64,000 bases of DNA from Schizophyllum amplum (taxonomy: Eukaryota; Basidiomycota; Agaricomycetes; Agaricales; Schizophyllaceae), in NCBI GenBank assembly GCA_007026445.1, contig VDMD01000005.1, positions 1,054,001-1,118,000 on the forward strand, written 5' to 3'. Position numbers and translations under genes: made by a program. Shown here piece after piece: positions 6,984 to 21,802 of this stretch; positions within the stretch are counted from its first letter, which is position 1; each line of letters starts with the position of its first letter. The notes under the pieces were generated by a model that saw only the letters and a list, made by a program, of their open reading frames with translations, did not search any database and had not been told where the DNA came from.

Positions 6984-9034
6984 ATGTGGGCGTCATGGTC
7001 TCGAATCACGTGCACGGACCTAATTCGGCTTTGGTTCCGTCAAGGTTCGCCTGGCGCCATGGCTTCACTCTTGTTCCCCACCATGTCCCATGTTCAAGGC
7101 ATGCCGCTCGATGAGACCGCATACCTCATTCAGTGCTCTGTGGCGCAAGTCTCGCATGACCATGTCCTGTCGCGCCATGCACACCGCGGTATACGGTTAG
7201 TCTTGGAGAGGACCGCTGAACGCGATGGATATGTACTCATAGCGCCTTTTCCAGACGAGCACGAGTTGTTTTCGATGACGAAGTACCGATGGTTATATAA
7301 CAACGAGAAACGTATGTCGTTCCGTGCGAGTGGACCTTGACGGCCGTCTGAGTTTGTCCTTAGAACTCACGGCTCGTTACATGCCATTCAACGTGGAAGC
7401 GCTTTTGAACATAGCAACGCAATCAGCGAACGCAAAGCAATGTACCTCTCTGGAGAAAATACACGACGGTCAGCCAGCCTTCCATCTGCTCCATGCCTCA
7501 ACTCATCCTTTCAAGGTACTTTCAACCGCGTGCTGGACCTGAAGTTCGACAACGGAGTGGAATACGTCGTCAAGATTCCTTTTCCGATCACTGGGCCGAA
7601 GCATCTCTGCACGGCGAGCGAGGTTGCGACGCTGGACTACATCCGTACCGAGCTCAGCATACCTGTGCCCGAGGTTCGATCTTGGTCCTCTCACGCCGAA
7701 CGCACGCCAGTAGGCACGGAGTACATCATGTACGAGAACATACCTGGGACTCCGCTCTCCTACTACGACATTACCGATCTCACTTTGGAGAGAGACCCCT
7801 TCATCCGTATCTTGCCCGCCGTCGTGGCCATCGAGACCAAGATGACTGAGCGAGCTTTCTCCCTCATCGGTGCACTATACTATAAGGAAGATGTTCCCGA
7901 ACATCTTCGTCGTGACTGGCCTCTGCACACTAAGACGGAGTACCGGTCTCCGAACTCCGCACGCTTCTGCGTGGGACCTACAATTGAACGCGAGTTCTGG
8001 CGCGCTGGACGGTCCACTCTGGACATCGACAGGGGTCCCTGTGAGTGAACTGTCTGTCGCGTTGTCTAGCGGGGCTGACCATGCAACCAGGGCCTGACGA
8101 TCGTGCGTATATGGTCGCTCTCGGGAAGTGCGCAAGCGCGAGCATAGAAGCTGGTCTCGATGCGGACCCCGATGGCGCTTACCGTGATCTAGTGTCGAAG
8201 TACGAGAAACTGATCCCCTTCATCGCACCGGAGCGTACGGCTGTTGCCCTCTGGCATCCAGAGCTGCACGCGGGTAACATCATCATCAATGATAAAAAGG
8301 AGGAGCCGTCTTCCGGAGGTATCATCGATTGGCAGGGATCTGTCGTCGCGCCCTACTACCGGCAGTTCCAAGTACCTCCAGCTTACGAAGTTGACGAGGG
8401 AACAGAGCTCGTGGTCCATGGTCCTGGTGTCGCTCCGAAGCTGGTTGACGGATATGACGAGCTATCCGCCGAGGAGCAGGACCGCGCACAGCGTATCCTG
8501 CGCCGTGCTTGGCGGGCGTATATGCACGAGATATACCTTCGACGCCAGGACGAGAAACTGGCCATGGACCTCTATTCCCACGACGACGGCGCAAATATTC
8601 TGCGCCTGACTACGATGCCCTCGTCCGCCATCACTGCGGGTGCGCACTACGAGGCGTTGTTGTACACGCGCTGGAGCTTGAAGATGATTTGGGACGTGTG
8701 GATACCTATAGTGGGGATCACCGAGGACGGCGGTCCCGCCGCCCCCTTCCCTTTTCCATTCACGGAGGAGGACGCGCAAAGGATCGACGAGGAATTGAAG
8801 CAGTATCGGCATGCGGAGTCAATCTGCAACGACATCTTGACTCAATTCGGCATCAAGCCGGAGAGCGAAGGTCTCGTCAAGGCAGAGAAGTACGAAGAGA
8901 CCAAGAAGGCTGTTGAAGCTGCTTTACAGGCAGCGCTAGATGGCGCACCTTCGGCTGAGGAGAGAAACCGTATTGCTGAGGTGTGGCCTCTGCGGGAGGG
9001 CAAGGTCTCTTTGACTGCGGAGAGGTGCTGGTAA
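6984..9034 (+). CDS. Aim9-like mitochondrial APH-fold phosphotransferase
   Basis: Four exons can be set cleanly: 6984-7311, 7364-7468, 7516-8040 and 8091-9034, with introns of 52, 47 and 50 nt. The spliced protein shows the family landmarks in order: ELFSMTKYRWLYNNEK, RYMPFNVEALLNIA, HDGTFNRVLDLKFDNG (glycine-rich loop), YVVKIPFP (ATP-binding Lys), DIDRGPW across the third intron, LWHPELHAGNIII (catalytic loop, with the Asp position changed to Glu and the Asn kept) and IIDWQGS (metal-binding Asp). This matches fungal altered-inheritance-of-mitochondria 9 and phosphotransferase-family proteins. The N-terminus from 6984 is basic and aromatic, which would suit a mitochondrial presequence; a second in-frame ATG at 7059 is a possible start. 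The substrate is unknown. It lies convergent to the giant GTPase gene. Confidence 0.85.
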
Positions 9035-9644
9035 TTCACTGGTTTCCGAGCTGCAGTTTTCCGTACTCCCATCTCGCTGTGTTGATGGCAATCATTGGCC
9101 TGCCGAGCACGTCTATACATCCACTTGACTGAAATACAACGCTTGTTGTTCGTAATACCGGGTTCGTTGGTCAAGAGACTTGAGGAAAGACGAGTATGAA
9201 GACCCTTTTGAACGGCGTAGCGTACAGGTTGCGAGTATGTATATTTATAGTCAAAGTCGCTCGACATCTCAAGGCCTCGATCCTTGTGCTGCTCACCAAC
9301 GGGACTCCTTCTCGATGATATTAGCTCGCAGCTCCTGATCGCCAATGCCATCGCAGAGTGTTGCTGGGCGATGATTTGAGTGAGCCAGGCTGCCAGCAGA
9401 CAGGTGGACGAAATTGTGATTCGTGGGCCGCAAACCACTCCTTTCATGGATTCAGGTCGACAAGCCACGAGCGAGCGTTATTTGTGCACAATGGAACAAG
9501 ATGATGATTTGAGACACAATCATACAGAAACTCGCGGAATATTGGAAGTCGAGCAGACGATCGAGGCAGCACATGTCAATAGTAGATGGTATGGGCGTCG
9601 TTACAATAGATATGTCGGAGGTCATTCAGCGAAGCCATGTACTT
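9035..9644. other. Convergent intergenic region
   Basis: About 0.6 kb between the 3' ends of the Aim9-like gene and the giant GTPase-VWA gene. The open frames here (minus 8842-9468, plus 9380-9667) overlap the real gene or lack any recognisable domain. I see nothing else. Confidence 0.4.
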
Positions 9645-12600
9645 TCAACGAAGGAGAGCACCCCTAGGCTTGCGCAGGGAGTCGGCCAATCCCAAGAAGG
9701 TTTCAGCCAGTCGAACCTGAAGACGTGTGATCAGCAGTTTACATTTGACCTCGTTGCGTGGACGTACAGAATCAAGCGCTTCGGCATATGACGATTCTAC
9801 GTACGCCGTCGCGGGAAGAGCTGGGTCCCTCGGCGCACGATTCTGCACGTCGCGCGCTATCTGAGCCATACGACGTAGGACCTCATTGCGCGGGCCAAAG
9901 GAAACAGCATGGAAAGACAGGTGCTTCCTACGAATGATGTCAAGGCGAATGACATGTACTTGGGGACACTCGCGTACCCAAGCTGGACCGCGGCCTGACC
10001 AAGCGACTGCATAGTATGGTCGCTGACGCTGCTTTCCCCATCTGACAAAAATACTACGACCGGAGTTCTCAAAGTACAATGAGAGATAGTCCGTCAACTG
10101 ACAATACCTAAACTCACCTTTCTGTACTCCAGTGTTGCCGCATAAGCGCTTCCGTGGCCTGCAGAGCGGCCGTGTAGTCAGTACCTCCACGTGCTGTGTG
10201 TGTGACAATTGCATCGAGGAGCTGGTCGGCTGTCCGCGTAAAGTCGTTGGCAATGCAGGTCGCAACGACATGGTCGAAGAGTATGACACTGTACGCGTCC
10301 CTTCGTGCTGCCTGAGAGCCCGAGGCATTCACTGCTGCTTGGCGTGCCATCCAGAAACTATGCAGAGCGGAGTACACAGCACCAAGACGATTATTGGAAT
10401 ATCGGGCGATGAGATTGGCACTGGGGGCGTTATTGAGCGGGCGGCGGTCTCCGGCGTCCATCGACCCAGAGCGGTCGATGACAAAGATGCTGTAAGCCTC
10501 GTCAATGATGTACCAAGGAAGGATGGAAAGAGCGTACACGTGGAAGGCCTGTTGCAGCACAGCAGGATTTTTGCACGAGAAGTGGTGCCCGTCGCTCGAC
10601 GTGTATCCCAAGCCTTGTCCCGGCGTTGTCTGTGGAGGATGGAAGACGGGCAGCGTGCAGTAAGACGGCTGGGCGGGAGTTGTTCCTGTCGCAGCATGCT
10701 CGGGTCCTACATACGCAAAGTTAACAAGATTGGCTCTGGGAGGAGACATAGGTGATTTGTACCAGAGCACATGGCGTCGCTGAAGAACAAGTTCAGCTAA
10801 CATTTCATAGCAGACATATTCCGACTTACCATTTCGCAAAGTTCGTTTGATCCTCTCTCGAGTACGGGTCTATCAGTTCGTGAGTGAAATACCTACTTTG
10901 CGGCGACCAATGATGTGGAGCGTACCTCTGAAGCCTAGAAAAGATTACTCGATGAGTGACCAAGACAGTGCAAGGGAACAGCCGGCTTACCTGTGCGCTT
11001 CCAGAAGAGATTGTGAGATATCCAGTCCTTAGGTTTGTCAGGATCAGGCCGCATGCGATCGTTGATGTGAAGAACGCCTTCCCCTTGGCAAGACACGTCC
11101 GCTTGTGCACGGCAATAGTCAACATGGACGTGTCGACCCATCTCCTTACAAACCAAGTTGCAAAGCATGGGCGCCCCGTCGTCGTCAGCGCCGAATTTGT
11201 GTCCGTTGAGCTCGATAGTTCCGTCTTCGTCATCGAGGGCCCAACGAGTCTTCGACATAGAGCCGTGACTGGTGTCGTGCTCTTGCTGTGGATGACCTGT
11301 GGACTTTGCTCAACCCAGTATCGCTCAAGCGAGGATAGCGTTGACCGACCTAACGGCAAGACGCAATAGTAGCCACAGTTGTCGCACCTGTACATGCAGA
11401 TACATCAGTACGAAGAACGCCTAAGATCCGACCATGAGTGCAGACCTAGCTTCGCAGTGATGGAATGCGTTCGGCGCGATGTTGTGTGCGTGCGGTCCGT
11501 CGTGTGTTGTCCTGTCAGCCGGAATAGTCTTTGCGCATCGCAACTTCTTGGCAACTAGCAGCATTCGTTTATAAAAAAAATCACTGACATCTCGAAACAC
11601 TAACCTTGCGTATACTATGGTCGTGACGGATGTCGGTGATCAATAATGCGGGCTGCGGGTCTACTTGTACACACCTTGGTGTATTGAAATGCCTCATGTC
11701 TACCGGTGAAGGTTGCCTCAACCGATAGCGGAGCAGTGTCTATCTCGCAAAAGCCCGCCGCCTCGCAATTCCTTGAGCAAGAATGAGACTGCCTGTGTCG
11801 TGGTCAGCGCGTATTATGAGGACTCAAATCTCTCAACAAACGCACCCGCAGAGATGATGTGCACCACGATCTAATGCATGAAGATGATTCGAATCAGAGC
11901 AAAGCCGTTGGCACAGCTCGCACTCCAAGGGGCACATGCGAACATCACAGACGTGTTCGTCGTGTTGTTCGTCGCTAAAGCGTACCAACATGATCGGTCA
12001 AGATCGAAGTACATACGAGGTATAAACCAAAGCGCACCTAGGAACTCGGCAAGTCCCAATGCACGAATATGAAGATCCATCTGGCAAGAGCACAGCGGCG
12101 AGGTCGCATGGCTGCGTATCATATGTGAGTGTGACAGCCCATACGACTTTGCGCATGAGCTCACCATTCCGCACGCGTGAATCTGAGCCGCGCAGATATG
12201 CTCGTCATCTGCGTGGCCAGAAGTCTACAAATCAGATACCAAGTCAGATATATATATCTACAGGGCCCTAGGCTGGTTCATACCTTGATGCAGTCGCCGA
12301 GGCATCCATTCTTGTCGCTAAGAGCGCAGGGCTCACCACAGAGATGTCGCTCAACGAGACAGCTGACGGAGCAAGTAGGTCAGAAAGATATGATATATGA
12401 GAGCGGAATACCCACATATGCTTTCCAGAATGCCCCGCGCTACCGGTACGTGTCAGTCAGGCGTTATATCTGGTATGAGAAAGTCTTACGGATATCCACA
12501 GTCCTCTTCGTTGTCCATGTGGTCATCGTCGAAGTCGCAAGGCAGAGTACACTTGTGGTTCGTTTGACAGTCGTGAGACTCACTTGAACTATGGCGACGA

Positions 12601-15600
12601 CTTCTCAAGCAGATAAGATCACACCGCGAACACTTGACCTTGCAGAGCTCGACATCTGCTTTCATTTGCGCCCCGATGCTCGCGAAAGTGCGACGTAAGT
12701 TGTCGATGTTCGCATGCTCCGCCGTGAAGCGCTGCAGGTTAGCGTCAAGCCATGCGTGAACGTGCGCGACACGCAGATTGACAATCTCCTCGAGATACGA
12801 TGAGAGGCTCGCCACCCAATCGCTCTCCGTTGAATTTGCTCGATTCCGATACCCGCTCCAGCTGATTCGCAGTGCAGCCAGAGCAGAGTCCGCATCTACG
12901 GCCTCTCCTGCCAGAGTGGATATATGAAAGACGGCGACGGTGTCCAGCATGTCAATCAGTTCATCAGTGTCGATGTTCTGTGAATCTGGTCAAAGCCTTC
13001 TGCGGATGGGCACTGCATCACACACCTTGAGTGGCTCGTCGTCAATCGGATCGGAAAACCCTCGGGCGAGCGCCACAGGTAAGAGCTCCAGTAGCCGACT
13101 AGCACGATGGGCAGCGAGAGTTTCTAGTGACAATTAATCATGATCGGTGGTGCTCAAAATCATGGACTTACGATCGATTGAGCCCCAGTCGTTACTCTGT
13201 GGATACCTGTCAGCCGCAGCAGCGGGTCTTCAGTGATGCTTTCCTACCTTGAGCTTTGCCATAAGCGTCTTGAGTGTCTGCAGGAATTCTCCACCAGAAG
13301 GATGAGTGAGCTCCTGCCTGTCCAAGGCGGACTTGAGAGTAGGGAAATAGCTATAGAACTGCTTTGACTCGATGACGGGCCATGGTATGATGCTCAGCTT
13401 GCCCGCATGTAACTTGGAGATGAAATTGGCATCTTGTTCCTGCTGCACGATTTGCTAACGGGAGAGTTTCATCCGAGATTCCCAACAAAGACGAAGCATC
13501 TTCATACCTGGAACTTCAGCGAGAACCTGCGACAGATCAATGGGCGGTTACACTTGCAATGGCTGATCACCTACTCTTTCTTGATTTCATTCTTGTCCGA
13601 GTCGACGACATCCTGTGGAGGTATCCAGGGCGTCAGCAATACTTCGTCATGATACACAGCGACATGATATACCTTGATGATGATGACCAGCGTGGACTTG
13701 AAGAGAGTCGGATTCACTGCTGGATCCAAGACTGTAGACGATGACTGAAAAGACTGGAAGAGGCCTGTAATATCGCGCGATAGGGCAAAATTGTTACGGA
13801 AGAGGACCTGTATGGTTGAAGATATCAGACTGATATCCAGTATAGCCCCAGCGTTCTCACCAAGTTGGAGATCGCCGCGTTGAACAAGACTAGGAGCATG
13901 TCCTCCTGGGCGGAGCGCTCGATACTGTGTACACCTTCAATAGCATGCGACATGCGTGAGTTTTTCACTGATTATACATGCTATGCTCTTGCCTTCGAAA
14001 TCTAAAGCGACGACAAGGCATGTGTCCGTTGGCGTTACCGCCATCCATACCCCCTCTAAATATATTGAGCGAGGAAGCAAGGTTGCACAAGATGACAACC
14101 CACCAGTGGTTCTCATGGCGCTTCCCGCAAACGACGTATCCGCCAGATGATTCAAGGCAAAGCTTTTACCAACTGACTGTTCGCCTTTGAATATGTCAGC
14201 ATAGTGTCACCACAATAGGTAGGGCAGCTTACCCATGGACGAGACGACCTTGACGGGCTGTGTGCGAACTCGTCAGATGAAGTACTAGAGTACGGCAATG
14301 GATGACCAATGTGGTATCACCTTTGTCGACTGATAGGATTGGAAGATCGACTCATACCACCCAACGGACAGAGCATCCACGATCTGTCCAACATCTGCAC
14401 CAAGGAGCGACTTCTCCAAATCCGCCGAGTGCACGCCGTCCTTGAGAGGGACGAACCGATTGTCGCGAGTGATAGCGATATGGATAGGGATGAGGCAGAA
14501 CACATCGACGAGCCATTCTCCCAGGTGAAAGCGAGAGATGTCTGAGTCCCACTCGACACCCGGCATGATGCCACCCTTGATGTCGTCGAAGGTCACTGCT
14601 TCAACAGCGATGTCACGAAGGACTTTGCCCGTCGGTTTCCGTGTACGCTGTTCGAAGGACTGGATCATGTCGGCGAAGTGCGCGGCGAACTGGTCGCGAT
14701 CATGCTTCGCGACGAAGACGAGGCTTTTACGCTGCCGGTTGACATCGGTCACAACGGTTTGCCGCGCGATAGCCGGGATGACAGGAAATCGAGTCCAAAC
14801 GTCCGCGTGGCATTCGATGAGACTATTGTGCATCGTATGCGCACTAGCCTGCGATGACGACTTGACTCCCTTCTCTTGAAAGCTGAATTCCGTGACCTTC
14901 TTGGTGATATCGAGGGCGTATGAGCGAATCGCGTTCTGGGAGTCGTCCATCCAGGCGAGGTGGACGATGTTGCGGCGCACAATAGACGTGAGCACGGCCG
15001 TCTCGTTCGCAAGAGGCAAGTCAAGAGTGATGCCCTCGGTTGACCCAAAGGTGATCCAATGGTAAGCGCGCGTGACTAGTGGGGAGCTATCCGTTTCCTT
15101 GAACACGAGCATGAGGCATGAACCGTCGGGCGAAGACAAGGCGTTGATAGGAAGTCTCTCGAGTGCGAGTGAGGCCGGCCTTATCATGGGACTTGTGAGC
15201 GAGGAACAGCAGATCAAAATCGAAGAACATACCTGAATTGCTGCGTCACAAGAGAGAATATACGAGCTTGCCCAGACACATCGATCAGCAAAACCTCCTC
15301 ACTGCCACTAACCAGGCAAGTTTGATGGATGCTGGTCTCCCCGTTATACCAAGGCTTGAGTTCGACGACGTGCGCTGATCTGATGCTTGCGAAAGTCTCG
15401 TCGAACGCATATATGTGCAAGAGCAGCTTATGCAGGGACATTGACATCAGACGAGCATGATACCTCAGTGACAAATAGCACCTACCCGCTGACGAGCGCA
15501 CAGGGAAAGTAGTCGCGTTGTCTCATCAAAAGAGAAGATACTGTCCGCGCCCAGCTTCGCCCGGTCTAGCACTTTCATAGGCCGCCGATTCCCGGTAGCG

Positions 15601-18600
15601 CCGCCGAGTGCGCGAAGTTCACCAAGATAGATGTGAAATTTGTCGCCGCCGTCGTCAACGATGAGAAGACATCGGTCATGAGCGAGCAATTGCATAAGCC
15701 GAATGCGATGCTTGAGAGGTAGCTTGAAGCTGTACGAAAAGCGCGGTTGCTCTCGCAATGCAGGGATATGTGTGTGATCAAGTTGCAAGGCTTGTTGATC
15801 TTCAGTCGAAAGGGCAAGAGGGTGCACTGTGTACTGGATGGCAGGGTCAAGGCGGCATTGCACACGGCCATCAACCATGTACGCTGTAAGTCCGTTTTCA
15901 GTACGCGAGACAGAGGCGCGCGTGACTGACGACAACACTTACAGGTATTGTGGGTCCAGTACGGGGTGTACGAAGAGATGTCCTCTACGTACAAGATCTC
16001 CCTAAACGGCAATCGTCAGCCTCGCAATTGTTACACGGTGGGTTCAGTCACTCACGTCGCCTCCGGTCGCGCGGCGCTGTTGACCTCGCGGATGAGGTCC
16101 TTCCTGTATCCCTTGCACCGAGAGTCCTTGCCGATCGAGGCCTCACGAGATATCTGCTCCAAGAGCGACTTCTCCTGTATGCTTTGCATCATCTGCGTAA
16201 GGTGGCGTAGCGACTTCTGCAGGATAGTATCCAGATGCTGATATGCCGTCTCAAGAGCACGCGTCACAAGGTCTTCGAGCAGGGGTTCGCGAGCGAAGAC
16301 ATCGTCAAGGCTCGCGAGGAAGTCGGTGTCACTAACAACATTTATGGCCTTCGACGTGCGACTGAGGATTTCTTGCTCGACCGACGCTTCCCTACCGGCG
16401 AAGAGCTCCTTCATCACCGTGAAAAACCCAGACTTCTTGGATTTCGCGGCGTTGGAGTAGAGGCCGCTTCTGAGATCGCCTTCCGTGATGATCAAGTTCA
16501 TGAGCCCCCTGCGCTGCTCGTCGGAGAGTTCGGTATAGTTTTCGTCCTCCATGACAATTCGCGCGAGAGTCAGGCGGTCCTTGAATGTCCGGAGAGCGCC
16601 GTGCGTCGAGATCTTCCATATGTTGTCCTTGTTCATGCGGTTGTCGAATTCGCGTCGCATGTCGGGATACATCTGAGAGAGGTCCTCAAAGGAGGCTAGC
16701 ACATGATAAGACACCATCGAACGGGAGGCAAACAGTGCGTAACATACGAATGGAGTCCAGCGCATCCTCTTGGGCGGCGGTAGTCTCCTGGCTGTCCCGC
16801 TTGTCCGTCTCATGTGCGCCTTCCTTGGTATTCCCGTCGCCTTCGCCGGCGTCTTCGTTTCCCGCAGTACTATCTGCCCCTTGCTTGTCCTCGGCCATGT
16901 CGGCGCTGTCACCTGACTCGTCGGCAGTCGTCTTTCCGTGGTTGAAACCATCACAACTGTCCGTATCCTTGTCCGAGAACAACACGAATCGATCCTTGAA
17001 CATCCTGCGGAGCAACCGTGAGTTATGCAGACCATACAAATAGCAAACGACGTACGGGTACACGCCGATAATATGGTCCACTAAGGCCAGCCGCATAGTC
17101 TGCTCGAGCGACGCCTTACTAGCGTCGACGTTCTCCTTGACCAACGCGCTCTTCCTCTTCTTCTCCGACTCAGCCTCTATCGCCGCGTCGCGAATGCTTC
17201 GTTCGTACGTCTTGCATGCATCGCCGAACGCCTGATTCATGCCGCATTTGATCAAGCATTGAATGGCGCTGTCGTTCAATCCCTCGTCCAGATGAATAGC
17301 CATTCCCTTTCTACGCATTGTCAGGACAGAGATGAGGAAGAGCTCAAGGCACACCTGAAATAGGATTCTACATTCGTCCTGTAATACTCCTTTCTGCGAA
17401 ACGGAGTGGTTCTCTTCTCCTGGGCGACATATCTTGCAGTGAGAAAGGCCTGGACCGTCTCACCGGTAATGAGCTTCGGCATCAGTATGCTCGGATCTAT
17501 GTTGGCCTCAACGGACGACTGCGATACGTGCAACGAGCCGGAGTGAAGCTACAACCGGAATCAGCACAATGTCATGAGAGGAAGCTCAACATACTTCTAT
17601 GCCGGGCCTGACCGTCACGTTCTCCTCCTGCTCATTCGTCTTCGCGACTTCGAACGTGAAGAAACGGTCGCCCTCCTCATCCATCTCCATGCTCTCCTCG
17701 TCCGCCGCCTCCTTCCAAATCATATGCTGCGCATGCTCGTCGGACATCACACACATAGTCTGGTCCGCGATCTTTGTGAGGAACCTAGCGAGAACAGGGC
17801 TCAGTAAGTATAATCGTCTCAGCGAGTTGAAGCCTGAACATACCGTATGAACGTGATGCGGTTCTTACGGACGGTCGATATGGCGTTGTCGTTCCATGTC
17901 GTGTCCTCCGGCCAGTACACGACGAACAGCTGTTCCTCAGCGGTCGAGGGAAGCGACATCCGGACGAAGTACAAGCCGGAACGAAGCCTCGGTCCGTTAG
18001 AGTCGTCTTTGGCGTCCAACAACAGCCGTGCCCTGTAAGGTCACGGTGACAGTCAGCCTCGTAGACGAAGGATCGTAGAGCACCGTTACACGTACATCTT
18101 CCCGTCCACGACCTTGCTGGTCGTGAGCAGCTTCACGATCTCGGTTTTGCTACCGTAGACGCCGATGGGCTTGACAGACAAGTTGTCGAGTGCCTTGAAG
18201 TCGATCTTCGTCAAAGACTGATAGGCGCCAGGACTGACATCGTCGAGGAAACGTTTGAGAGAATCCTGCGCGATGATAATTTTGTCAACTGATGAACATC
18301 AGCCTCAGCGGTGAGCGTCTCCCAAGTTAATCACCTACCTAGTCCTCCGCTGCCTTGCTCGCTGATGAGGTCGAGAATGCGATACAGGCGCGGGATAGAG
18401 TCCGCGAGATCGGTGCTTGGTTCGTTGGCCTTTGACCTTTTGTGGACCTTGTGCGTGTGCTCGTCCGCAGCGCGCTTAGCGCCAGGTTCTGTCTCGGAGG
18501 GGCGGTCTTTGTCGTTCGCGTCCATCTTAGACGCGTCGTCCATCTTGTCCTGATCAACAAACGCATCAGGGCGGGCAGAAGAGGACTCACCATAGGGTCC

Positions 18601-18786
18601 GGAAAGACCGCTGAGGAGGTGGGGTCTGAGTTGCACGCGTCAACAACATTGTAAAGTTCCCAAGAGATGCTTGCCGTCTGCGTGTATGGTGATGGTGCTC
18701 CCAAGCCCACTACTTCCAAGCGGGCTCGCGTCAATCTGCATACGGTCGGGGTCGTCGAAAAGCTCGGGCGGCCTGTAGCTGGCCAT
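9645..18786 (-). CDS. Giant VLIG/GVIN-like GTPase with Cys/His-rich region and C-terminal VWA domain
   Basis: One gene of about 9.1 kb with many 45-60 nt introns and roughly 2,400 residues, starting at ATG 18786 (MASYRPPELFDDPD) and ending with TGA at 9645-9647. Order: a long alpha-helical N-terminal part with a Glu/Asp-rich insert (about 16.75-16.95 kb); a G domain with P-loop GEQSVGKS (14162-14184, one Gly split by an intron), MRTT, and ALDFEG as the DxxG motif followed by VHSIERSAQED; a helical linker; a Cys/His-rich stretch of repeated zinc-type clusters (for example CSRCDLICL, HLCGEPCAL, CDNCGYYC, about 12.6-10.9 kb); and a VWA domain with metal site DRSGSM, GGTDYTAAL and VVVFLSDGE. The last intron visible (51 nt, in frame) precedes RLAETFLGLADSL. 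The G domain resembles animal very large inducible GTPases (inference). No fungal function is known to me. All junctions I checked splice in frame, so it looks intact. Confidence 0.85.
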
Positions 18787-19503: not shown

Positions 19504-21802
19504 ATGGTTGGCGTCACCAAGAGCGAGCACAGAGGGGCCGGATCGTCCTCATCGGCGTCGGTCTTGAGCCGCATATTGCGCGGCGATGATGTTGCCCAGA
19601 CATTCCCGCAAACGAGCCAGTACCGGAGCGGTGGCGTGTCGGCGTGCGGGCTTGCTGCGTTAAACTGCGCTCGCGTCGTCTTCGAGAGTAAACAGAACGA
19701 TGAGGAGCGCCTCAGGTCGTTGTTGGACTCCAAGACCACCGACGTTAGTATCTTCATTGCTACTTACGCGGTCTTCGGTTTGCTAATGCGAATATGCAGG
19801 AGATCATGGTGGCGACAGACTGCTGGAAAGGGAGCTCCCATCTCGAAGTGGAGCAGTTGCTGGCGCTGCCGCTGTTCTTGCGCTCAATGAAGCTGGTCGA
19901 GACGAAGTTCGCGAGCGTCAGTCATGGCAAACTCCGGGAACTCATCGCGTACGGACGGGCAGCACGTGTTCTGATGTTCGTTTTCTCACCTTTTGTCCAG
20001 AGAACTCAGAGACACCCCATCCATCAACGGATGCGCTGCTGTCATCATCACACGTCCTCCAGAGATCGTCGTATGCCTCAAGGTACCTCTCAAAGGGCCT
20101 GCCCCAACGGCAACCAGCTCCAACGTCGTACTCGCGGTCTTCGACTCTCATCCTCGCCCGTCACACCCCGAGGGCGCCGGCTGGTTCTTCACGAAATCTC
20201 TAGACCAGATGGCGAAACACCTACACGGTCTTCTTGCAGTAGATCCCAGGCTCCTCGCCGAAACCGGCATGCAATGGCAGGCGCAGCTCCTTTCAAACTT
20301 CTCTGGCCACATCATCGTGCCCACACGAGCTCACCATCTCCTGAAGCCAGAGGACGAGCTTCAACAAGTGCTCTGGGACTCGACTCTCGCGATCCTCAAG
20401 CTCCAGGCCGAGCTCGAGGAGACCAAGTTCCAGAACGCTGCTTTGACGGACATGAACAAGCGCTACGAGGATGAGCTCGACGCACTGGAGCGCAAGAACA
20501 GGGGCATGCGCCAGAGGTTAGAAGTTGCGGAGAGGCAATCTCATGTGGCAACTTCGCAATTGAGCGGTCAAGGTCACCGTCTTTCAGCCGACGTCAAGGG
20601 GAAGCGCCCCGAGAGACCATCGGGCAGTGCATCTCGACCTTCCGGGAGCGGAGATGCGCCGATGGTTGTCGACGCGCTATCTTCGGACCACCTACAGGCG
20701 CTGCAAGCTCACAACGCGTTCCTCGAAGAGGACCAACGCCTCCGCGCAGAAAGGGAAGCGCTTGTCAAGACCGCGGTCGGTATCTTCGAATGCCCTGTCT
20801 GCTTCGACAAACACCCAGAGACAGACGTCGCGCGAGTCCGCATGTGTGGCCACGTTCTATGTCGGGAATGCGCCCGCGGGTACATCCTCACCAAAATTCA
20901 AGAGCGCACCTTCCCTATGACTTGTCCGATATGCCCAACGGACAAGGCATCCCGCGAGTCCGGCGGTACGTTTCTCACACATCCTTTACCGAGCTCTTTA
21001 TCAACAAGTCTCCTCAATCTCCTCAGTGATCGAAGAGGACCTCATTCAACAGACCAACATCCCCCAGAAGGAGCTCGAAATCCTCGAAGAGCTCCAGCTC
21101 GCCGCCTACAGCGTCCCCATCTACTGCCGCAGGTGCGCACTTCTCCTTTATGTCCCTCGTACGGTAGCCCACCGGCGCACACCGACCACAACGCTCTGGC
21201 AGCCAGTCCCCTGACACCGCTGGCCGGCCCCCAGGTGCCAGAACACCGTCTTCGTCGACCGCGGCGAATATCAAGAGAGCCGCATCGTCACATGCCCGCT
21301 CCCTGGCTGCACGTATGCGTGGTGCAGGCACTGCCAGCAGGAAATCGCCGCCGGGCCCGTCCAGCACTCCTGCGACGGATCGCTCGAGCTCGCGACGCTG
21401 ATGAAGGACCGCGGGTGGAAGGCTTGTCCGGGTAAGTTCTTGCGTAAGGAATCGATGCTGGGTAAATATTCTGACCCTCGTTCCCTCGTTCAGGCTGCAA
21501 GACGAACATACAGAAGACGGATGGGTGCAATCATATGACGGTCAGTTTGTTTTGCACGGCGGAAGAGGCTCTTTACTGACGTATAATCGTGCAGTGCCCG
21601 TCCCCGGGCTGCAATACGTGAGTGACGACGTCTATGCCTAGGAGCTCGCTAACGCTATATATTCAGGCATTTCTGTTACGCATGCGGCGAGTCTATCGTT
21701 CGTTCGACAAGGAGGGAAGAGTTGCAGAGGGCTATCTCGCGGCATTATCGAAAGTGCGAATTCATCCGAGTGAATATTCCCGACAGAGGAATGCCTCCAT
21801 GA
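19504..21802 (+). CDS. RBR (RING-IBR-RING) E3 ubiquitin ligase with N-terminal Cys/His domain
   Basis: Exon joins are clear: 19504-19743, 19800-19948 and 20001 onward, then several short 3' exons to TGA at 21800-21802. The first 200 residues form a separate domain with GGVSACGLAALN (Cys48) and VFDSHPRPSHPEGAGW (His near residue 180), a Cys/His spacing like that of papain-fold thiol peptidases. A coiled coil follows (LQAELEETKFQNAALTDMN). Next come RING1 (FECPVCFDKHPETD ... MCGHVLCRECARGY ... CPIC), the IBR (YCRRCQNTVF ... CPLPGCTYAWCRHCQ) and RING2 (ACPGCKTNIQKTDGCNHMTC ... HFCYACGE). In RBR enzymes a RING2 Cys forms the ubiquitin thioester; the Cys of DGCNHMTC is in that place. Substrates are unknown. 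It is divergent to the giant GTPase gene. Confidence 0.87.

Follow-up and report, generated by a model that had tools for sequence, protein, structure and literature searches.

The 64,000-nt stretch of Schizophyllum amplum DNA analysed here (contig VDMD01000005.1, positions 1,054,001 to 1,118,000; hereafter the window) carries on its minus strand a gene for a giant GTPase of 2302 residues. Its GTPase domain is almost certainly of the GBP/atlastin type and is followed by a region dense in conserved cysteines and histidines and by a VWA domain. The protein represents a widespread family whose zinc-type region is undescribed, and is not a proven VLIG. In the predicted models the order of parts is an N-terminal alpha/beta domain, a beta-propeller with an inserted helical arm, the GTPase with a helical bundle, the Cys/His region and the VWA domain, located as follows:

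9645..18786, minus strand: whole gene, ATG at 18786, stop codon at 9647-9645, 43 exons, 2302 residues, exact match to the database protein P0001
17724..18408, minus strand: predicted N-terminal alpha/beta domain, residues 95-265 (AlphaFold model m1eafffce78f9)
17378..17657, minus strand: first strands of the predicted beta-propeller, residues ~288-365 (model strands and structural alignments)
16073..17273, minus strand: predicted helical arm inserted in the propeller, residues ~386-751, fast-evolving
14867..16000, minus strand: rest of the predicted beta-propeller, residues ~758-1078
13179..14521, minus strand: large GTPase (LG) domain, residues 1194-1480
14162..14233, minus strand: P-loop GEQSVGKS at residues 1269-1276, interrupted by an intron
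13933..14002, minus strand: switch II DFEG at residues 1314-1317, with a GC-AG intron inside it
12648..13178, minus strand: helical bundle following the G domain, residues ~1481-1625, covered with the LG domain by structural alignments to GBP, atlastin and Sey1
10573..12644, minus strand: Cys/His-rich region, residues 1627-2060, a putative multi-zinc domain by its Cys/His conservation in 22 family members
9648..10554, minus strand: VWA domain, residues 2067-2302, with the metal ion-dependent adhesion site (MIDAS) motif DRSGS at 2077-2081

The gene runs from the ATG to a stop ending at 9645, exactly the interval given in a preliminary description of this DNA, and all eight motifs quoted there (GEQSVGKS, SFAGSAMRTT, ALDFEG, SIERSAQED, CSRCDLICL, HLCGEPCAL, CDNCGYYC and DRSGSM) occur in the window on the minus strand. 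Its genomic span of 9,142 bp contains 42 introns of 44–63 nt each, two of them GC-AG, and a coding sequence of 6,909 nt. This model was obtained by aligning P0001 back to the window with GT-AG and GC-AG introns allowed, and the spliced translation equals P0001 with 0 mismatches and 0 internal stops; the single large chain proposed earlier stands, at 2302 instead of ~2,400 residues. The P0001 record (2 member sequences, source tag 'lgn') has a longest contig of 7,809 nt, which holds the whole reading frame. Since the genomic span is longer, P0001 must come from spliced RNA, a conclusion drawn from these lengths. The locus is one gene with one transcript. That several adjacent genes, or a broken gene, were misread as one, an outcome for which the preliminary description had allowed, can practically be discounted: tiny exons and two GC-AG introns might speak for it, but P0001, necessarily spliced RNA, is the entire chain, and profiles for both ends recur in one chain among the 22 members aligned below. 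Agreement with P0001 throughout requires these exons, of 9 and 10 nt at 10934-10926 and 11614-11605 (minus strand), as well as the GC-AG introns, which fall at residues 38 and 1317. An ab initio gene model of 2211 residues had the right gene ends and wrong splices, including the loss of part of the P-loop, and was set aside for the P0001-guided model. A hand-corrected version of it (2242 residues) served as full-length query in the protein searches, hence P0001 appears there at only 89% identity; identities in the 22-member alignment are measured against P0001 itself. The nearest named protein, P0002 of Schizophyllum commune, is 74% identical in an alignment with P0001.

The G domain is the best conserved part of the chain, with 80% mean pairwise identity in a set of 23 rows (21 named Agaricomycetes, P0001 and P0004). 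Besides the P-loop and switch II it has a switch I, SFAGSAMRTT, that runs on across an intron into TEGVWM, and a G4 motif that reads KD. In an alignment of 22 members including P0001, drawn from fungi, land plants and algae, an oomycete, dinoflagellates and an amoeba, plus a sponge and an acoel, the P-loop is kept in 21 (P0196 is gapped there), RxT[D/E]G and D[F/L/T]EG in all and [K/R/N]DV in 20. At E ≤ 0.01 these members match the Pfam families VWA_2 (22), RHD3_GTPase (21), URGCP_GTPase (20) and GBP (18). In P0001 the GBP N-terminal domain scores 24.4 bits, above the cut-off of 21.1, and the isolated G domain 19.4, below it. RHD3_GTPase, which gives the lowest E-value of the G-domain profiles when the fungal G domain is scanned alone (4.2e-9), reaches 31.9 bits in the whole protein and 36.6 in the isolated domain, short of its cut-off of 42.4. 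URGCP_GTPase is the top G-domain profile in four relatives scanned individually, and in P0001 it scores 16.9 against a cut-off of 55; even its best match among the 22, P0278 (E 1.3e-11), stays below at 44.4 bits. The predicted fold of residues 1194-2302 contains one LG match, with GBP, atlastin and Sey1 among the listed structural matches. A second LG domain was found neither by Pfam in P0001 nor in this model, and the listed structural matches of the N-terminal alpha/beta domain include no LG domain. The proposed assignment to a 'VLIG/GVIN-like' G domain is therefore partly right: the URGCP/VLIG profile does match, but below cut-off and with one G domain, not two. Because of the single LG domain, the low URGCP score and the added propeller half, Cys/His region and VWA domain, the protein is best classed as a member in its own right of the GBP/RHD3/VLIG group within the dynamin superfamily.

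Behind the helical bundle the C-terminus of P0001 consists of the Cys/His region and the VWA domain, ending in GALLR. The Cys/His region is about 430 residues long (59% mean pairwise identity in the 23 rows). Residues 1600-2070 contain 76 Cys or His residues, 67 of which (all 40 Cys and 27 of 36 His) are identical in at least 90% of non-gap rows across the 22 members; among the other residues this holds for only 26 of 395. HxCx3C recurs five times and CxxxCxxCxxxC three times, and because of this conserved pattern we infer that the region is a putative zinc binder. At E ≤ 5 the 450-residue segment matched no Pfam family and no PDB sequence; its fold was not searched separately, and the listed structural matches of the model all fall outside it. 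The string of putative zinc clusters proposed from the letters has its motifs and strong conservation, and lacks a sequence match to any zinc-finger family in Pfam or to the PDB. The VWA domain (63% identity in the same rows) scores 47.4 with VWA_2 against a cut-off of 27 and has all MIDAS metal residues (DRSGS, GGTDY and SDG), as had been proposed. Across the 22 members DxSxS and [S/T]DG are each present in 20; P0197, from the chytrid Rhizoclosmatium, has no DxSxS at the aligned position. The top fold matches of the domain are chains of TFIIH and of the proteasome.

The predicted propeller with its helical arm is an addition to what had been described for the N-terminal half. Structural alignments of the propeller cover model residues ~200-972, and its mean pairwise identity is 45% in the 23 rows. 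The N-terminal alpha/beta domain was modelled (AlphaFold model m1eafffce78f9) with a predicted local distance difference test score of 75-95 in ten-residue blocks of model residues 1-170; residues 93-330 share 52% identity, and the only Pfam match of this domain lies below cut-off (Lipin_N, 13.2 against 25). The arm consists in the model of a ~71-residue helix (681-751) and low-confidence stretches, and identity over residues 331-757, which include it, falls to 21–22%. Judged by these identities, the switch and the platform of the protein are constant and the arm is variable. A sequence-profile match of the propeller to Prp19 (E 0.003) was discarded as evidence, as matches of equal strength were obtained to the low-complexity chains SNF5, Mediator and huntingtin. 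Outside fungi, the propeller and N-terminal domain are known only as conserved consensus positions of the 22-member alignment.

The preliminary description had suggested that this combination would be a new architecture; similar giant proteins occur in many eukaryotes. At E ≤ 1e-3 the full-length query matched 550 proteins among 7,986 scored, which excludes chance, and the named proteins among the best 120 listed are all Agaricomycetes. A query running from the G domain to the C-terminus matched 258 proteins among 7,997 scored, and the best 120 of these add the Glomeromycotina Rhizophagus, Funneliformis, Entrophospora and Cetraspora, the chytrid Rhizoclosmatium and the dinoflagellate Durusdinium. 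With the Durusdinium protein as query, 110 proteins among 7,754 scored were obtained, all listed. Named rows include plants and algae (Cryptomeria, Taxus, Ceratopteris, Adiantum, Selaginella, Ceratodon, Riccia, Calypogeia, Klebsormidium, Galdieria), dinoflagellates, Phytophthora, Saprolegnia, Aphanomyces, Albugo, Chromera, Reticulomyxa, Stereomyxa, Oscarella and Convolutriloba. This query has a short reach, as just two of its rows are Agaricomycete (P0285 and P0304), neither among the matches listed for the other two. Ascomycota, flowering plants and vertebrates were not recognised among the matches listed for the three queries (120 of 550, 120 of 258 and 110, the last from the short-reaching query). 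The sequences thus place the family in many eukaryotic lineages, and it is not unique to Schizophyllum amplum. Databases list its members as 'hypothetical protein', 'VWFA domain-containing protein' and the like, and no description of the family was found in a literature search limited to open-licence papers and, for long result lists, to part of the results.

For a G-domain tree 50 rows were chosen and 45 used, P0002, P0156, P0209, P0187 and P0266 being dropped for want of the P-loop pattern. A branch with 100/99 support parts all 19 fungal rows from the 26 others, as would be expected of old vertical descent; the tree is unrooted, has no GBP, VLIG or RHD3 outgroups and contains three long non-fungal rows. 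The labels of P0199, P0243, P0244, P0268, P0271 and P0275 were read from accession style or similarity and are presumptive. The G domain of P0197 falls, weakly placed, among those of Agaricomycetes. Some Agaricomycete proteins of ~1,400-1,830 residues among the matches listed (P0203, P0207, P0233, P0236 and similar ones) have the G domain and no listed VWA domain, and P0233 stops within the Cys/His region. The four tested VWA-less proteins scatter among full-length ones in the tree; these proteins may be truncated gene models or repeated losses.

Within the S. amplum genome one locus was found, and a 42-kb contig carries a second assembled copy with 99.8% identity; these copy numbers are lower bounds. 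The second copy (L021, G000:C82:9001-19000) differs from window positions 9248-17509 by 16 mismatches in 8,262 bp and probably represents the other haplotype, altered by inserted or rearranged DNA; beyond window position 9248 its contig continues into different DNA, of which several contigs have partial copies. Multiple copies occur elsewhere. Suillus lakei has 4 rows among the best 120 of 550 matches, and Cryptomeria has 13 of the 110 Durusdinium-query rows, several with close locus numbers that point to a tandem array, although some rows may be models of one locus. Head-to-head with the gene, an open reading frame on the plus strand (19975-21432) encodes a RING domain (zf-RING_2, 28.2 bits, cut-off 27.3) and, by eye, coiled-coil-like sequence; the two genes possibly share a promoter. 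Directly 3' of the gene, another plus-strand open reading frame (8045-9031) has a weak phosphotransferase (APH) match of 18.2 bits against a cut-off of 23.2.

The best hint at function is that domains of ubiquitin ligases have repeatedly been fused to the chain. Of the 110 Durusdinium-query rows, 12 have precomputed RING or B-box domains, which suggests a GTP-driven scaffold tied to ubiquitin tagging. In P0240, P0258, P0262, P0272 and P0329 the RING lies ~820-970 residues ahead of the P-loop; in six others, from Phytophthora and kin (P0278, P0291, P0292, P0294, P0296, P0308), it lies 52-55 residues from the C-terminus; and P0244 has B-boxes, with no RING found. A RING pattern search of 348 proteins added P0295, P0309 and P0315, by the pattern alone. 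Weaker hints at assembly and signalling are the sponge protein's ankyrin repeats and its CARD, the latter below threshold, and a SAM domain in Effrenium.

The best overall explanation, held tentatively and with doubt slightly outweighing belief, is that of a cytosolic giant GTPase of the dynamin superfamily, with the GBP/atlastin/Sey1 fold, that clusters on targets in cell-autonomous surveillance. GBPs, atlastins and Sey1 pair their G domains on GTP binding. By analogy, GTP would pair the G domains of two molecules, and its hydrolysis would swing the helical bundle so that the protein clusters on a target recognised by the propeller and the fast-evolving arm. The zinc-type region and the metal-dependent VWA domain might together make up a rigid platform for gripping a partner protein. 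Where a lineage has a RING fused to the chain, the cluster would ubiquitinate the target directly, and the window protein, without a RING, would recruit a separate E3 ligase. Its likeliest use would be cell-autonomous surveillance of invaders, damaged organelles or aggregates. Among the parts of this explanation, GTP-driven self-assembly is reasonably probable and coupling to ubiquitin a possibility that we rate lower. A putative immune role is plausible; that the purpose is immune rather than housekeeping appears rather unlikely. Several findings weigh against the surveillance explanation. No RING was found among the five Pfam families of P0001 or by the RING pattern, the CARD of the sponge relative scores below cut-off (17.5 against 23.9), PADLOC returned 0 families in four members, and the propeller and VWA folds alone show no function. 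A P-loop arginine of the GBP type is present in none of the 22 members (one is gapped there), and to judge from the alignment the catalytic mechanism must differ from that of GBPs. Finally, with one locus and a near-identical second copy, no expanded immune-type family is visible in this genome within the lower bounds given above.

A housekeeping function is the doubtful alternative that comes closest. The protein would then be a ubiquitin or proteostasis hub in which the GTPase cycle opens and closes the multi-zinc/VWA platform and passes substrates to E3 ligases or the proteasome. The RING and B-box fusions, the likeness of the VWA fold to TFIIH and proteasome chains, the strong conservation of the G domain, the low copy number here and the RING-bearing neighbour would all fit. 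However, fold likeness is not function, the RING neighbour is known at one locus only, and the multiple copies in Suillus lakei (at least 4 rows) and Cryptomeria would be unusual for a hub. A membrane-fusion GTPase at the endoplasmic reticulum, like Sey1, RHD3 or atlastin, is very unlikely. The fold is the same, the best E-value of the isolated domain belongs to RHD3_GTPase, and the RHD3 P-loop resembles the G-x-Q-S-x-G-K-S type found here. But the RHD3/Sey1 family has a transmembrane hairpin, whereas in the far longer window protein the hydropathy of 19-residue windows attains 1.5 only in those starting at residues 1192 (1.51) and 1193 (1.64), at the edge of the G domain; its RHD3 scores remain below cut-off and its C-terminus is the zinc-type region and VWA domain. 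RNF112, a small membrane protein that joins a RING to an atlastin-like GTPase, is not known to have a VWA domain, propeller or Cys/His region. It is the second-ranked Foldseek match (E 7.5e-11), and some relatives likewise combine a RING with a GBP/atlastin-type GTPase, unlike the window protein. GBPs carry a P-loop arginine (G-x-x-R-x-G-K-S), a C-terminal helical effector domain and, in some, a lipidation motif. Compared with GBP1/2/5, the window protein lacks this arginine, has KD as G4, and has a propeller half, with the Cys/His region and VWA domain in place of the effector domain.

We also consider it unlikely, more so than the hub, that the protein is a true VLIG/GVIN-type antimicrobial coat protein, a fungal immune effector polymerising round intracellular invaders. 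Giant size and the recurrent URGCP_GTPase matches would agree with this, and human GVIN1 is described as forming coatomers round cytosolic bacteria (PMC11974893). The passages on GVIN1 describe two LG domains with a helical linker and mention no C-terminal Cys/His region and VWA domain (PMC11974893), whereas the window protein has one LG domain and both of these parts, and no observed score attains the URGCP cut-off. Prokaryotic vWA-MoxR and DO-GTPase conflict systems also join NTPases, vWA domains and zinc ribbons, an analogy by description only; they use other NTPase types, usually in separate genes (PMC7159879). In a term search of a review of fungal regulated cell death, vWA appears only as an abbreviation in a figure legend and the terms 'GTPase', 'guanylate' and 'dynamin' do not occur (PMC12881547).

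The window protein thus stands for a family whose members, GTPases of ~2,000 residues, occur in fungi, land plants, algae, oomycetes and dinoflagellates as well as in a sponge and an acoel; the family's most conserved part outside the GTPase core is a set of 67 Cys/His positions with no Pfam match. It would be a bold and, on the sequences, still improbable proposal that early eukaryotes already had a giant GTPase built round a ~430-residue multi-zinc domain, a GTP-gated scaffold for ubiquitin tagging or surveillance and a cousin of animal VLIG and GBP. If it were true, fungi, conifers, ferns, mosses, algae, oomycetes and a few animals would have kept this protein, and an immunity machine of the VLIG/GBP kind would predate animals. 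Should these proteins turn out to be assembly machines gated by GTP, then Schizophyllum and other tractable mushrooms could reveal the pre-animal workings of giant immune-type GTPases and could show the molecular role of the VLIG/GVIN proteins.
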